DNA from: a virus
Length of the DNA: 64,000 nucleotides
IMG/VR virus record: IMGVR_UViG_3300047558_000137
Span: 62,001 to 126,000 of that record
Reading direction: 5' to 3' (one strand)
Every line of letters starts with the position of its first letter. Positions within the stretch are counted from its first letter, which is position 1. The translations under genes and the position numbers were made by a program. Positions 58,417-64,000 of this stretch are shown here, one piece after another. Below the pieces are notes generated by a model that saw nothing but the letters and a program-made list of their open reading frames with translations, did not search any database and had not been told where the DNA came from.

Positions 58417-58977
58417 TTAGCGAATAATACCGGCCATATTGCGTAGGGCCTCTGTGTACTCGTTTTTAGGTGCTTTTGTTGTTACTTTTACACCAGCAGT
58501 AGCTTTTAGCTTGTCAATTACTTCTTGCCCGTACAATTGATTGTACTTTTCTGGGCTAGTAGGAATCATCGATTCTAATGCTTCTAGACTAAGAGTTTGT
58601 TCATCATGACTTTTAGTGTAACGCACACGCCAATCCTCTGCTTTTTGTTCAGTTAGATTAAACACATCTTCCATCATGGTCATAATGTTAGCGGGTGCAT
58701 CTTCTGTACGATCTATTTCGACAAATACAATATAGCTGCCATCGTCCATTTCGCCTGAACTTACGTCAGCGTCAAGTACCCAGTCATAGCCTTTTTCAAT
58801 AAATGCAACTAGGTCTTCTGCTGGTTCCTTGCTGTCAACTTTAAAAGTTACAACAACAACATCAGCATCGTCACCTAACTTACTTTTGAATTCGTCTATG
58901 TGTAGTTCAGGGTGAATTAGGCGCTTTAAATCGCCCATTTCAAGACCCTCAAAGATTGGATTGTTGGTCTTGGTCAT
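58417..58977 (-). CDS. Hypothetical phage protein
   Basis: 186 aa from the ATG at 58977; the reading frame extends upstream, but that part lies inside the next gene. It has an acidic alpha/beta domain with GDLKRLIHPELHIDEFKSKLG, DADVVVVTFKV and a calcium-like DADVSSGEMDDGSY. I recall unnamed relatives in T4-like phages. It overlaps the upstream gene by 29 bases. Confidence 0.65.
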   Translation of the reverse strand: MTKTNNPIFEGLEMGDLKRLIHPELHIDEFKSKLGDDADVVVVTFKVDSKEPAEDLVAFIEKGYDWVLDADVSSGEMDDGSYIVFVEIDRTEDAPANIMTMMEDVFNLTEQKAEDWRVRYTKSHDEQTLSLEALESMIPTSPEKYNQLYGQEVIDKLKATAGVKVTTKAPKNEYTEALRNMAGIIR

Positions 58978-59488
58978 TAATTGTATCCTCTTGGTCCATG
59001 GCTTCATTGTCTGTACCTGTTTCGTAGGCTGTATCAATTTCTTCCATGTCAACTGTGCCAGATTCTAATTCTAAGGCACCCTGTTCAATGTCTTGCATTA
59101 GTTTCTTAGGCATAACGATTTCTACTAACCAGACTGGACTCTTAGTTAGTTTAGGTACTTTAGTACCGGGTTCGTAATCGTTAGGTGTTTTTACTTTTAC
59201 TGGATGTTCAAAGTGATCTTCTTTGTAAGTAACATCGCAGTCGTATTCATTTAAGCGAATGCCGCCACGTGGGTCGGGCATCTTTTTGTAAGGCCACATA
59301 AAAGTACATTTAACAAAATACTTTTCGTAAATTGGGCCCTCTACTAGCTCGCCCTGTTTCCAATTGGCAAAGGCATACAGGTCAAGTTCATCTAACACAC
59401 GTTCAAAATCCAACAGAGTGCTAACAGCAGAATCTGTCATGAAGATATCTTTTGTGTTATCTAATAAATCTCTAATATTTGCTGGCAT
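58949..59488 (-). CDS. Hypothetical phage protein with leaderless-type start
   Basis: A 179 aa protein: a helix (RDLLDNTKDIFMTDSAVSTL), then an alpha/beta core (FVKCTFMWPYKKMPDPRGGI) and an acidic C-terminal tail (150-179). A late motif GATAAATA ends five bases before the ATG, with no SD. The transcript may start almost at the ATG. The function is unknown. Confidence 0.65.
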   Translation of the reverse strand: MPANIRDLLDNTKDIFMTDSAVSTLLDFERVLDELDLYAFANWKQGELVEGPIYEKYFVKCTFMWPYKKMPDPRGGIRLNEYDCDVTYKEDHFEHPVKVKTPNDYEPGTKVPKLTKSPVWLVEIVMPKKLMQDIEQGALELESGTVDMEEIDTAYETGTDNEAMDQEDTINDQDQQSNL

Positions 59489-59508: not shown

Positions 59509-60768
59509 TTAAATAGCGTGTGTTGCTATTTTCTTTAATTTTCTGTTCTGTATAGCCATAATTTCCATGTTAGAACGTTCTAAGTATCCTCTATTTACAA
59601 ATTTAGGAGATACAGGATTATACGTGCTGTCTCCTATGTAATATAGTTGACTTAAATTTGGTTTAAACCCCACGGGGCTGTTTAATTCATATTGGAAATA
59701 CTTTGGATCGATTTTATCTACTAGAAATTTTAGCCCTGCACGCCATGCATGATCGTACTCGGTCCCTGCTAAATTAGTATGAAACCAGTGATCCATTTCA
59801 TTGTAGAAACTAGTTGTTGGCTTTGATGTTTGCCATGTTTCTAAATCATAATCTGGGTATATTATTGATTTAGCGATATATTCGTATGCTGTGCGCTGGT
59901 TTGTATTACCATTGGGTGTCTGCACCAAATGCCTGACATGTCCGTTCTGGGACATATCAAACCACATCTTAATCATGTGTGCTTGCTTACACACTATTTC
60001 TGGCAAATCTGGAGTCCAATAAAATAACTCTGTGGTTATATTGGTATTATCTCCAACTACAGGATTGGGATGATTTGCCTGTAGGTCACTATAATAGACA
60101 TACCATTTGTTTTCTATAATACAGACTTTGGGTTTATCAATACCATATAACGCACAGATCTTCTTTCCAGAATCAGCTAGGGTTTGATGTGCAGTAGTTC
60201 CAAAGTTAGTGTGCTTAATTCCATGACCGGGTTGAAACCAGTCCCGAGTAGTGTAGACCCACGACTCATCTCTCATATATGAATCGTTTAGAAGATTTTC
60301 ACTGTAGTCTTGAACTGTAACTACTGTATCGGGAAAGTTTGTCTTGATCCAGTGCAGTAGTGGTTCAGCGGCAAATTTCTTCTCACTTAGTGTATTTTCT
60401 GCGTTAGTGTTCCATGGATCGTCTGTTACATCCTTGTCTACTTGTGCGGGATATCTAAATACAACTTCGTCTAAGTGAATTCCGTTTAGTAAGAAAGCAA
60501 AAATAGCAGTAGTACTGTCTCCACCGCCACTAGCTTCAACTCTAATCCAATCATACTGATCTCGTAACTGCTGTGCCCTGATTCGATACAACTCTCGTAT
60601 ACTGACTTCGGGTTCTTGTGTCCAATTAAATTTAGCCAAGTCGATTGTATTAAAGTGCCACCCAGGTGTTACGCCTAATTCTGTGGCACGTATGTAAGCC
60701 TGAGGCTTTGAATAGAAAACCTCAGTGCCTACTGTGTAATAACCTAATTTAGGATTACGTTCAATCAT
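59509..60768 (-). CDS. PP-loop ATP pyrophosphatase-like protein (copy B)
   Basis: A 419 aa protein with a PP-loop (ASGGGDS, residues 79-85) in the segment RIRAQQLRDQYDWIRVEASG, followed by a helix and an LNGIHLDEVVFRYP strand. This is the ATP-adenylating motif of the QueC/TilS/asparagine-synthetase superfamily. It is much longer than QueC (about 230 aa) and I see no QueC zinc cysteines. It is paralogous to the protein at 62851. It probably activates a carboxylate or carbonyl with ATP, substrate unknown. It is coupled to the Bug-like gene by ATGA. Confidence 0.75.
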   Translation of the reverse strand: MIERNPKLGYYTVGTEVFYSKPQAYIRATELGVTPGWHFNTIDLAKFNWTQEPEVSIRELYRIRAQQLRDQYDWIRVEASGGGDSTTAIFAFLLNGIHLDEVVFRYPAQVDKDVTDDPWNTNAENTLSEKKFAAEPLLHWIKTNFPDTVVTVQDYSENLLNDSYMRDESWVYTTRDWFQPGHGIKHTNFGTTAHQTLADSGKKICALYGIDKPKVCIIENKWYVYYSDLQANHPNPVVGDNTNITTELFYWTPDLPEIVCKQAHMIKMWFDMSQNGHVRHLVQTPNGNTNQRTAYEYIAKSIIYPDYDLETWQTSKPTTSFYNEMDHWFHTNLAGTEYDHAWRAGLKFLVDKIDPKYFQYELNSPVGFKPNLSQLYYIGDSTYNPVSPKFVNRGYLERSNMEIMAIQNRKLKKIATHAI

Positions 60769-61685
60769 TTTGATTGATCGATTTTAACACCAACTGTTAA
60801 GTTAGTCCAATATTTAGATTGCTCATCCCACCATTTTACTAAATCCTTTTCTGGGATTTGGTAAGGTTGGCAATAGTCAAGTGCATAAGAATCTCTAACA
60901 GATTTTTTACCTTCTACTTTAAGTAGAATATCTCTGATTTCTTTTGCTTTGTCTTCTGGGAATGTTTTTGGTACCATTAGGTTATAAGGAGTATTCATCT
61001 TGCCCATTGCTGTAGGAAAGCCTTGGCTTACTAATGTTGCGTACTTTCCTACAGGTTTAGTGCCGGTGATCCCTAGAATATTCAGCTTAGGCTTACCTGG
61101 TTCAGCAACAACATATTTTTCTGCATCACCAATAAATCCCACTGCTAGATCAACTTGGCCGCCGAGAGCAGCAATAAATGCATCTATTGTAGATTTAAAC
61201 GGAATAATGGTTGCATTTGGGTATGCTCGAACTACCTCAATGGCCATCAGATGACTAACTACACCAAGTCCACTAGTCGCAATGGTAATAGGTTGATCCT
61301 TTGGAACTTCCTTCCATGATGAGTACTTAGAACTTGCTACAGAAAATGGAACACTACATTGTGTGATTAATGTACGGAAATCGTTTGGATCGTAGCTTTC
61401 TTTAGGATAGAAAGCAGGACGCACCCAGAATACACCCGACGTCATAAAAATACTGCCGGGCGTATTTTTAACATAGTTACCTGCAATAGCATTGCCGGCC
61501 CCGGGCTTTGCATCAAAGATAAAGTTATACTTGTCTTGAATTTTATTTGCTTCTTCAGCCAGGTTACGACTGTAGTTTGCACTGTTATCTGCGGCGCTGA
61601 AGCCATAGATGATTTGAATAGTTTCTTTTGCAGATGCAGATAATGCTACTGCCGCAAAAACCAACGCGGTTAAAAGTTTTTTCAT
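60765..61685 (-). CDS. Bug/TctC family periplasmic solute-binding protein
   Basis: About 306 aa from the ATG at 61685, with the SD TTGGAG. It has a signal peptide, MKKLLTALVFAAVALSASA, cut before KETI. The mature protein has the Bug/TctC pattern: IIYGFSAADNSANY at the ligand-binding loop, a FDAKPGAGNAIAGNYV motif (the PGAG typical of the family), ATSGLGVVSHLMAIE and a late DYCQPYQIP. The family binds carboxylates for tripartite tricarboxylate transporters in the periplasm. It would feed a host TctAB-type transporter. A sigma70 promoter lies just upstream. Confidence 0.82.
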   Translation of the reverse strand: MKKLLTALVFAAVALSASAKETIQIIYGFSAADNSANYSRNLAEEANKIQDKYNFIFDAKPGAGNAIAGNYVKNTPGSIFMTSGVFWVRPAFYPKESYDPNDFRTLITQCSVPFSVASSKYSSWKEVPKDQPITIATSGLGVVSHLMAIEVVRAYPNATIIPFKSTIDAFIAALGGQVDLAVGFIGDAEKYVVAEPGKPKLNILGITGTKPVGKYATLVSQGFPTAMGKMNTPYNLMVPKTFPEDKAKEIRDILLKVEGKKSVRDSYALDYCQPYQIPEKDLVKWWDEQSKYWTNLTVGVKIDQSK

Positions 61686-61705
61686 GTTTATTTTCTCCAA
61701 TAAAA

Positions 61706-61734
61706 ATTATACAAAATTATTACTAATTTGTCTA
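61706..61734 (-). promoter_or_regulatory. Sigma70-type promoter of the Bug-like gene
   Basis: On the minus strand TAGACA (61734-61729) and TATAAT (61711-61706) are exactly 17 bases apart. The SD and ATG of the Bug-like gene follow within 25 bases. One base differs from the -35 consensus, and the -10 is perfect. It indicates transcription by the host polymerase, independent of the late genes. Confidence 0.75.
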
Positions 61735-61867
61735 TGATTAAAGGCTAGTAGGATTTCTACTTACGGAAGTCGGCGTTCTATGTGTATCACAACAGTAAAA
61801 GAGTTTTACTACTCTTGGCGTCAACTATATGTCCGGCGTCAGATATCTGGCGCTGCAAAATTATTTA
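61735..61867. promoter_or_regulatory. Intergenic region with hairpins and GGCGTCA repeats
   Basis: The region contains a perfect 7 bp hairpin AGTAAAA-GAG-TTTTACT (61794-61810), an 18 bp near-palindrome around CAGATATCTG (61836-61853) and two direct GGCGTCA repeats 18 bases apart (61817, 61835). It has no T-run, so a regulatory site is more likely than a terminator. It separates the dihydroxyphthalate-type gene from the Bug-like gene's promoter. Confidence 0.5.
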
Positions 61868-62851
61868 TTATAATTTGTATTGTAACAAAGTTTCTTTAGC
61901 AAATAATTCTTCTACAGTAAGTAAATGTTTAGACAAGCCTTGTGTGTGGTGGTAACGGCAAAATGTTTCTAACATAGTTAAATTATTTTTAATTCCATAA
62001 CTCCACCAATTGTTGCCAAACTCTCGACGAGTTTCTTCTATGTGTGCAGGCAACCACGGTAACATTATTTTTAATGCATCGGTTTCCTGTAAATCTGTAT
62101 AAGCATACTCTTGAGCCTGTACAAACGCATTAAGTAAATTTTGAGCAAGCCATCTATGTTGTTCATATATCGATCTACGTATAACAATAACATGCATAGC
62201 AGGAAATATATTAGTTAGCCGATAGTAATCTTTTTCTACGTTTGCAAAATCAGGAAACAATCTTATAACTTTCCCGTCACCTTTTAAAAAACTAGTTGGC
62301 GTTCTGGCAGCATATAGTGCATCAATTTCGCCAGTATACAACATATTAGACAATGTTTTATTTGAGTCAATTGGGCTCACAAAATCTAAATCAAGTGGTA
62401 CACGTTCTATTCTGCCGGGCTGCTCTTGCCCGCCGGTGTAATGTTTTTGCGTAGTTTGATCTACACCATAGTATTCTTGCAAAATGCCACGGATCCATAC
62501 AGGTGCAGTCATTTGATATTCAGGGCTCGCTACACGTTTACCATTTAAATCACTCGGTGTTTTAATTCCTGACTCAGCATTAACGTAGATACAACTATGT
62601 CTAAAGAATCTAGATGGAAACACTGGAATAGCAACAAATGGTCTTTCTTCAGTATGTAAAGACATGCAGTAACTAGATAAAGACATTTCTGCTACGTCAA
62701 AATCTTGATATCGTGCCATTCTGAAGAATGTTTCATCTACAGGTAAATTGCTGTAATACAATTCTGCGCCCTCAACAGACACACACCCGTCAATTAACGC
62801 GGCAATGCGATCATAGTTCCAACAGGCAAAACTTAAATTTAATTTTTTCAT
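61868..62851 (-). CDS. 4,5-dihydroxyphthalate decarboxylase family protein
   Basis: A 327 aa protein that matches, from end to end, the pattern I know for 4,5-dihydroxyphthalate decarboxylases: DVAEMSLSSYCMS near 53-65, the FPSRFFRHSCIYVNAES box, GKRVASPEYQMTAPVWIRG and PGRIERVPLDL. The family also holds periplasmic substrate-binding proteins, but here there is no signal peptide, so a cytoplasmic enzyme is likely. The reaction would release CO2 from dihydroxyphthalate to give protocatechuate. The ATG overlaps the PP-loop gene's stop (TAATG). Confidence 0.75.
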   Translation of the reverse strand: MKKLNLSFACWNYDRIAALIDGCVSVEGAELYYSNLPVDETFFRMARYQDFDVAEMSLSSYCMSLHTEERPFVAIPVFPSRFFRHSCIYVNAESGIKTPSDLNGKRVASPEYQMTAPVWIRGILQEYYGVDQTTQKHYTGGQEQPGRIERVPLDLDFVSPIDSNKTLSNMLYTGEIDALYAARTPTSFLKGDGKVIRLFPDFANVEKDYYRLTNIFPAMHVIVIRRSIYEQHRWLAQNLLNAFVQAQEYAYTDLQETDALKIMLPWLPAHIEETRREFGNNWWSYGIKNNLTMLETFCRYHHTQGLSKHLLTVEELFAKETLLQYKL

Positions 62852-64000
62852 TAAAATCTATTACCTAAGGTAATATTAAATTTTTGTCTAGTATTATCAA
62901 ACATTACAGCATCACCAATATAGTAGAACGGAGTTAAGAACCCAACAAAGCCTACCGCACGGCCAAATTCAATATTAAAGTATTTTCGATCAATATTACG
63001 TTCAACAAAATTAATGCCAGCCATCCAACTATTGTATAGTTTATGTCCTTGAAAGTTATTGTAAAACCAAAAGTCCATTTCGCTATAAAAGTTAGTACCA
63101 GGTTTAGATACTTGAAACGTCATTGGATCGTAGTCAGGATAGACCAATGGCTTAACCATTTGTTCGTATGCTGTTCGCTGAGCGTTACTATGATTAGGCC
63201 AACGCACTAGGTATTGTAAATGCTGATTAGCTGGCATACTAAACCAATTGCGTACTAGGTGTGCTTGCTTTACACTGATCTCAGGCAAGTCCGGAGACCA
63301 GAAGAAGTATTCGTTTGTAATATTAGTATACTCACCTATGTCTGGATTGGCATAGTTAGCCTGGAAGTCGATAAAATACAAATACCACTTGTCGTCACGT
63401 ATACACATCTTAGGTTTGTCAATGCCGTATAACACACAGATCTTTTTACCCGAGTCTGCTAATATGCGTTGGTCAATTGTGTGGTAGTTAGGAAACTTAG
63501 TAACGTGTGCTGGTTGTAGGAAGTCTTTGGCTGCATAAACCCACGACTCATCACGGTCTTCATTTTCTAACATGTCTTCGCTGTAGTCGTGGACTGTAAC
63601 TTTAACCTTAGGGTAATGTACCTGCACCCATTGTAACAACGGTTTAGTTGCTAACTCAGCTTCACTTAGAGTATTTTCAACTTTATAGTTACCGGCATCA
63701 ACGGGTATAGTTTCGCCTCCGGCCTTTGGATAACGAAATACAACTTCGTCGATATGAATACCATTAAGTAGAAAACAAAATAGGGTTTGTGCGCTATCAC
63801 TGCCACCTGAACATTCTAGTCGAATATAATCGTAACGATCCCGTAACTGCTGTGCCCTGATGCGATATAATTCTTTGAGATTTACTTCAGGCTCGTGTGT
63901 CCAATTTTGGGCACCATATACTTCGTTATTAAAATTCCAGTTTGGAAATTGATCTGTGCGAGTGCCTTCTATTAGGGCCTGCACCTTACTGTAATATCGT
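62851..64000 (-). CDS. PP-loop ATP pyrophosphatase-like protein (copy A), partial at window end
   Basis: A paralogue of the protein at 59509, with SGGSDS in the same context (RDRYDYIRLECSGGSDSAQT) and LNGIHIDEVVFRYPK. The frame is open to the window edge, and the bases before the GTG at 63984 still encode residues that match the paralogue (RYYSKV versus FYSKPQ), so the start is outside the window. It belongs to a four-gene unit with the decarboxylase-family gene, the Bug-like gene and copy B. Confidence 0.75.
   Translation of the reverse strand, partial: RYYSKVQALIEGTRTDQFPNWNFNNEVYGAQNWTHEPEVNLKELYRIRAQQLRDRYDYIRLECSGGSDSAQTLFCFLLNGIHIDEVVFRYPKAGGETIPVDAGNYKVENTLSEAELATKPLLQWVQVHYPKVKVTVHDYSEDMLENEDRDESWVYAAKDFLQPAHVTKFPNYHTIDQRILADSGKKICVLYGIDKPKMCIRDDKWYLYFIDFQANYANPDIGEYTNITNEYFFWSPDLPEISVKQAHLVRNWFSMPANQHLQYLVRWPNHSNAQRTAYEQMVKPLVYPDYDPMTFQVSKPGTNFYSEMDFWFYNNFQGHKLYNSWMAGINFVERNIDRKYFNIEFGRAVGFVGFLTPFYYIGDAVMFDNTRQKFNITLGNRF

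Follow-up and report, generated by a model that had tools for sequence, protein, structure and literature searches.

Uncultured phages recurrently carry genes for a PP-loop protein (PP), a TctC solute-binding protein and a signal-less (cytosolic) DctP homologue, and these three, not the four-gene set of the stretch analysed here, are the conserved element. The four-gene unit lies at the end of that stretch (the window: 64,000 bases, positions 62001-126000 of a 374,314-base IMG/VR virus record) and encodes two PP-loop proteins (PPa and PPb), a member of the 4,5-dihydroxyphthalate decarboxylase family (DHPD) and a TctC/Bug protein. We tentatively read the unit as one copy of a phage cassette for the capture and activation of a carboxylate. 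The earlier note on this DNA had proposed a phage carboxylate module made up of all four genes. The module survives insofar as PP genes are associated with carboxylate-binding proteins far above chance, and AsnB/beta-lactam-synthetase-class enzymes are among the best structural matches of both PP families found; the four-gene combination is not supported as a unit, as no other viral DHPD was found in IMG/VR (single-protein and alignment scans) or in GenBank phages, and the conserved third partner is the cytosolic DctP.

Gene layout and the phoH-virion region

All four ORFs were confirmed on the minus strand, where they read PPa-DHPD-TctC-PPb (Table 1). The tight coupling described previously is present at both junctions: the PPa stop and DHPD start share one base (TAATG), and the TctC stop and PPb start overlap (ATGA). 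PPa is cut by the window end, with 382 of its 406 aa inside and its ATG at window position 64071, 71 bases beyond the end. The TctC ORF runs 60765-61700 if counted from a TTG at 61700, but the true start is probably the ATG at 61685, which is preceded by GGAG; the spacer from the DHPD stop to this ATG is 182 bases. The promoter formerly placed in this intergenic region is plausible as judged from an 11/12 promoter-like site before TctC, although the number of such matches in the region is at chance level (37, versus 34.1 +/- 5.9 in shuffled sequence). The T4-type late promoter TATAAATA was not found in the window. Just past the window, between a sulfotransferase-like gene and PPa, is the tail of a decayed gene, the translation of which resembles the C-terminus of a 2OG-oxygenase-like family (c24) that relatives carry intact at this place.

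Table 1. Features of the four-gene unit, its flanks and related loci (positions in the window unless a locus is named).
Feature	Position	Strand	Remarks
Virion structural gene phrog_12928	58949-59488	-	Hotspot border; homologue in PA5oct adjoins phoH
PPb, PP-loop protein, 419 aa	59509-60768	-	SGGGDS motif; AlphaFold2 model
TctC/Bug solute-binding protein, 306 aa from ATG	60765-61685	-	PF03401; signal peptide; GGAG before ATG
Promoter-like site before TctC	61734-61706 (L003:8735-8707)	-	TAGACA-17-TATAAT (11/12)
DHPD, 4,5-dihydroxyphthalate decarboxylase family, 327 aa	61868-62851	-	PDB 9jp7 match, E 9.8e-73
PPa, PP-loop protein	62851-63999	-	SGGSDS motif; 53% identical to PPb
PPa, complete ORF, 406 aa	L003:9852-11072		
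Decayed-gene tail	L003:11073-11195 (G000:126072-126194)		
Further TctC-PP pairs, same genome	L003:14438-16464; L038:6081-8125		Each short-overlap coupled
R2/ferritin-like gene	L003:16524-17219		
Signal-less DctP homologues, same genome	L003:17219-18178; L041:5888-6844		
Split DctP, other phages	L025:9347-10302; L026:2742-3700; L087:9336-10291; L111:5789-6746		
Chromosomal PP homologue	L116:7977-9658		Bdellovibrionota-like genome

The downstream virion gene has counterparts in large phages, among them PA5oct and RaK2-like phages. PA5oct, a cultured relative, has phoH directly beside this gene with nothing in between, whereas PP genes, mostly together with TctC and/or DctP, occupy the phoH side of it in the window genome and in 11 relatives from IMG/VR; we therefore regard the phoH-virion region as an accessory hotspot.

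The phage record as a whole encodes four PP proteins, each adjoining a gene for a protein of binding-protein fold (TctC, DHPD, TctC and TctC, respectively). It also has four genes for TctC and two for DctP without a signal peptide. The PP copies in the two further TctC-PP pairs are only about 31% identical to PPa and PPb, or less. One of the two DctP genes is coupled to the R2/ferritin-like gene, and inspection of the other (in L041) revealed a GNAT-like gene nearby. No TctA, DctM or Rieske domain was found in the 374-kb record.

Recurrence of the association in other phages

The PP family has 373 confirmed matches in IMG/VR, and the best 80 loci per scan were taken as locus sets. TctC or DctP is present in 53 of 57 non-redundant PP loci with at least 12 genes (TctC in 44, DctP in 38), the contig fragments being short and redundant, with duplicates removed by contig and by identical PP sets only. 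PP adjoins TctC or DctP in 68 of 111 cases; when gene order was permuted within loci (2000 trials), the mean was 22.4 and the maximum 35, and none of the trials reached 68. Coupling of TctC with PP is frequent, the two ORFs overlapping by 1 or 4 bases or lying only a short gap apart. Reciprocal scans from DctP (447 matches) or TctC (129 matches) recover PP in about half of loci. Many PP genes have no adjoining TctC or DctP, and no PP lies within 6 kb in about half of the loci with TctC or DctP (the fragments are short), which weakens a carboxylate reading. The earlier note had named as its own refutation that PP-loop genes should occur mostly without the other two genes; this is the case for DHPD but not for TctC, given the 44 loci above.

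The partners occur together not only in the phoH-virion hotspot but also behind a FEN-like nuclease gene, behind UvsX plus an rfaE-like gene, and next to a gene resembling peroxiredoxin (these neighbours were named by reading their sequences, not by family search). Counted over distinct proteins, members of a second PP-loop family lie next to DctP in 21 cases and next to TctC in 5, and in marine phage contigs that lack the first PP family DctP typically has this second family before or after it. By hhalign the two families are related over the PP-loop region (96.6%, E 5e-10), and Foldseek places the model of the second (pLDDT 78.8) near beta-lactam synthetase, TsnB9 and AsnB. Marine T4-like contigs (L182, L183, L188, L200, L204, L207 and others) have the order DUF2061-DctP-second PP family, and the neighbours of these loci look like replication genes. 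In three contigs (L224, L282 and L283), an AMP-binding (ANL) ligase is encoded directly 3' of TctC.

Among GenBank phages, the PP-loop proteins, their diverged copies, the second PP family and TctC had no match, with the virion gene as a positive control (83 records). DctP matches there reach at most about 29% identity, many of them in short unannotated or bacterial-looking records, and are unconvincing. The GenBank "phage" records OR845268, OR847573 and AFYI01000003 hold bacterial-type TRAP DctP genes, and at least AFYI01000003 looks bacterial. No description of a PP-loop and TctC/DctP combination in phages was found in the open-access papers searched. In SUP05 viral contigs, tctA, likewise a TTT component on phage DNA, was noted as a domain hit (eLife 2014, PMC4164917); it differs from the present genes in encoding a membrane subunit, in being a domain hit only and, as far as the relevant passage of that paper goes, in having no PP-loop partner.

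The encoded proteins

The families first assigned from the letters alone were borne out by searches and modelling: DHPD matches a solved structure (9jp7), TctC matches PF03401, and the PP-loop proteins have the SGGxDS motif and a fold model to match; PPa and PPb are paralogues, as had been claimed (identity in Table 1). Neither PPa nor PPb matched any Pfam or NCBIfam family. Within the motif, S80, G81, G82 and D84 are invariant across the PP family and S85 nearly so (65 sequences). Against the PDB, the AlphaFold2 model of PPb (pLDDT 92.6) is nearest in Foldseek to carbapenam synthetase, beta-lactam synthetase, LarE (prob 0.99) and GMP synthetase, and PP-loop enzymes make up nearly all of its top matches, though the significance is modest (best E 2e-3, TM about 0.3). 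The model thus supports a PP-loop fold and would place PPa and PPb structurally nearest to beta-lactam/carbapenam synthetases and LarE. The viral models close to it are those of uncharacterised proteins from uncultured Caudovirales. The phage proteins share the PP-loop SGGxDS motif with asparagine, beta-lactam and carbapenam synthetases, which are the best structural matches over about 350 columns; they differ in the low TM-scores, in a conserved Gx[DE]K motif of their own and in having no detected glutaminase domain (no Pfam match to an AsnB-type N-terminal glutaminase at E up to 1, and fewer than 80 residues before the PP-loop motif in PPb). A role in carboxylate activation is made less secure by the weakness of these matches and because PP-loop enzymes also perform thiolation and other chemistry.

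Cellular PP homologues were found only in a few Bdellovibrionota-like genomes, where they are chromosomal (L116, L136, L137 and L138), and in one MAG contig. In L116 the PP gene is coupled to a methyltransferase-like gene; an assignment of this neighbour as nicotianamine synthase was dropped, as Pfam gives a weak methyltransferase match alone. Inspection of the other Bdellovibrionota-like genomes indicated spermidine-synthase-like membrane proteins near PP. The MAG contig (L115, Methylococcaceae, 3156 bp) has no genes besides a DctP-PP pair and fragments of PP, and is probably a piece of phage DNA that ended up in a bacterial bin.

TctC has a hydrophobic Sec-type N-terminal signal peptide and a PF03401 score of 28.1 bits, barely over the gathering score of 27. 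Its best PDB matches are TphC, of the TTT aromatic-acid uptake system of Comamonas (PDB 7NDR/7NDS), and Bug proteins (7ndr, E 2e-9), and its profile likewise matches TphC/terephthalate-binding proteins best. In TphC, Q150 and T155 hold terephthalate (PMC8556258); in the alignment the phage protein has Ser and Val, respectively, at these two positions and Asp opposite TphC G34, and the AGG loop of TphC reads AAD at the aligned positions, which places phage TctC outside the TphC subgroup by that test. The phage record also differs from the TTT system in the absence of TctA. These replaced contacts, together with the lack of TctA, DctM and Rieske genes, weaken the carboxylate reading, and with the key terephthalate-contact residues lost and no Rieske oxygenase a phthalate specificity is unproven.

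By a crude hydrophobicity rule, 133 of 139 TctC proteins have a hydrophobic N-terminus, compared with 2 of 105 DctP proteins; the DctP N-termini begin straight at the first strand, with no recognisable export signal. The phage DctP proteins score far over the PF03480 cut-off and are homologous to many solved structures of TRAP solute-binding proteins, from which they differ in the missing signal peptide and in a record without DctM. Both copies in the window genome lack the Arg found in the usual KxRxxxxP motif, and another Arg is invariant. Several phages encode the cytosolic DctP as two overlapping genes, each of about 160 codons, with the split at about the same site.

DHPD is a full-length member of its family as judged from its phmmer alignment with 9jp7, a solved 4,5-dihydroxyphthalate decarboxylase (residues 1-325 of 327); no signal peptide was found in it. 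It is 39-57% identical to genes in bacterial ortho-phthalate 4,5-pathway clusters (with Rieske phthalate dioxygenase and dihydrodiol dehydrogenase), the nearest relative found (57%) having Rieske oxygenase and Gfo/Idh dehydrogenase genes as neighbours; it differs from these in being coupled to PP-loop genes in a record without a Rieske oxygenase. One such bacterial cluster (L140) has TctC-like genes nearby too, by sequence inspection. Of 118 positions that do not vary among three bacterial homologues, phage DHPD retains 97; leave-one-out bacterial controls retain somewhat more (97 of 108-115). Its GC content (36%) is phage-like, against 54-63% for the bacterial genes, which makes a recent import or a faulty join in the assembly less likely.

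The gene order of the window was partly recovered elsewhere: three syntenic relatives (L023, L042 and L077) have PP, one or two DctP genes, TctC, PP and the virion gene, but no DHPD, and two others (L004 and L043) lack the middle gene. DHPD thus occupies the place where syntenic relatives carry cytosolic DctP. Profile comparison found no significant homology between DHPD and DctP, so the replacement is one of position and broad type, not of sequence descent. By this analogy, the DctP homologues may have a task in which a small decarboxylase can stand in for them, and a phthalate-like substrate is plausible only for the DHPD-bearing variant.

Candidate function and alternatives

If the four genes act as a capture-and-activation cassette, TctC would be exported and bind an organic carboxylate in the periplasm, and entry would be via a host TctAB permease, proposed because TctA was not found in the phage record. 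A cytosolic protein, usually the signal-less DctP homologue and here DHPD, would take over the carboxylate; DHPD would probably decarboxylate an aromatic (ortho-dicarboxylate-like) acid. PPa and PPb would activate a carboxylate by adenylation and, most likely, couple it with an amine or another nucleophile, as asparagine or beta-lactam synthetases do. We infer the substrate and its aromatic nature, the use of a host permease, the decarboxylation, the adenylation, the product and the benefit to the phage. This reading is favoured because carboxylate-binding proteins recurrently join enzymes whose nearest structures are carboxylate-activating.

The main rival is biosynthesis instead of nutrition, which we consider rather unlikely: the PP-loop enzymes would make a compound (an amide, a nitrile or a thio-compound) with which phage DNA, virions or the host surface are modified, the proteins of binding-protein fold would deliver or shape its building block, and neighbouring oxygenases, radical SAM enzymes and sulfotransferase-like proteins would tailor the product. 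The AsnB/beta-lactam synthetase class often makes small molecules, the hotspot borders virion genes, and genes for 2OG-Fe oxygenase-like, R2/ferritin-like, radical SAM and methyltransferase proteins lie nearby in relatives; however, a constant set of tailoring enzymes is missing, the cassette of other phages adjoins what look like replication genes, and the exported TctC speaks for import.

Two further explanations fit less well. Counter-defence by ligand sequestration, in which signal-less DctP and DHPD would soak up or sense a small acid in the cytosol and the PP-loop enzymes would inactivate it, would accord with the cytosolic location of DctP, its missing motif Arg beside a different invariant Arg, and its splitting, but appears improbable: a periplasmic TctC is unsuited to sequestration in the cytosol, DHPD retains most family-invariant residues, and no defence signal is known to be a TctC/DctP-type carboxylate. 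Equally improbable is mere hitchhiking, by which unrelated host genes would share an insertion site, as the empty region of PA5oct, the highly variable gene content and the gene remnant beside PPa might suggest, since the same partners recur in several unrelated contexts and with a different PP-loop family in marine phages, adjoin more often than in within-locus shuffles, and are often translationally coupled as TctC-PP pairs.

Beyond the window, the capture-and-activation reading extends to a broader possibility that we put forward with some doubt, namely an undescribed, widespread phage system in which periplasmic TctC, cytosolic DctP or DHPD and stand-alone carboxylate-activating enzymes would capture a host or environmental carboxylate and convert it chemically during infection. 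The activators would be two divergent PP-loop families or, in a few phages, an ANL ligase, and the cytosolic DctP proteins would be enzymes or substrate carriers. Such a system raises the biochemical question of the role of a TRAP-type binding protein in the cytosol, and of why a small decarboxylase can replace it. Cassette genes are present on hundreds of contigs from uncultured freshwater and marine phages; if carboxylates are captured and activated, these phages would join in the turnover of dissolved organic acids via a dedicated uptake-plus-activation module.
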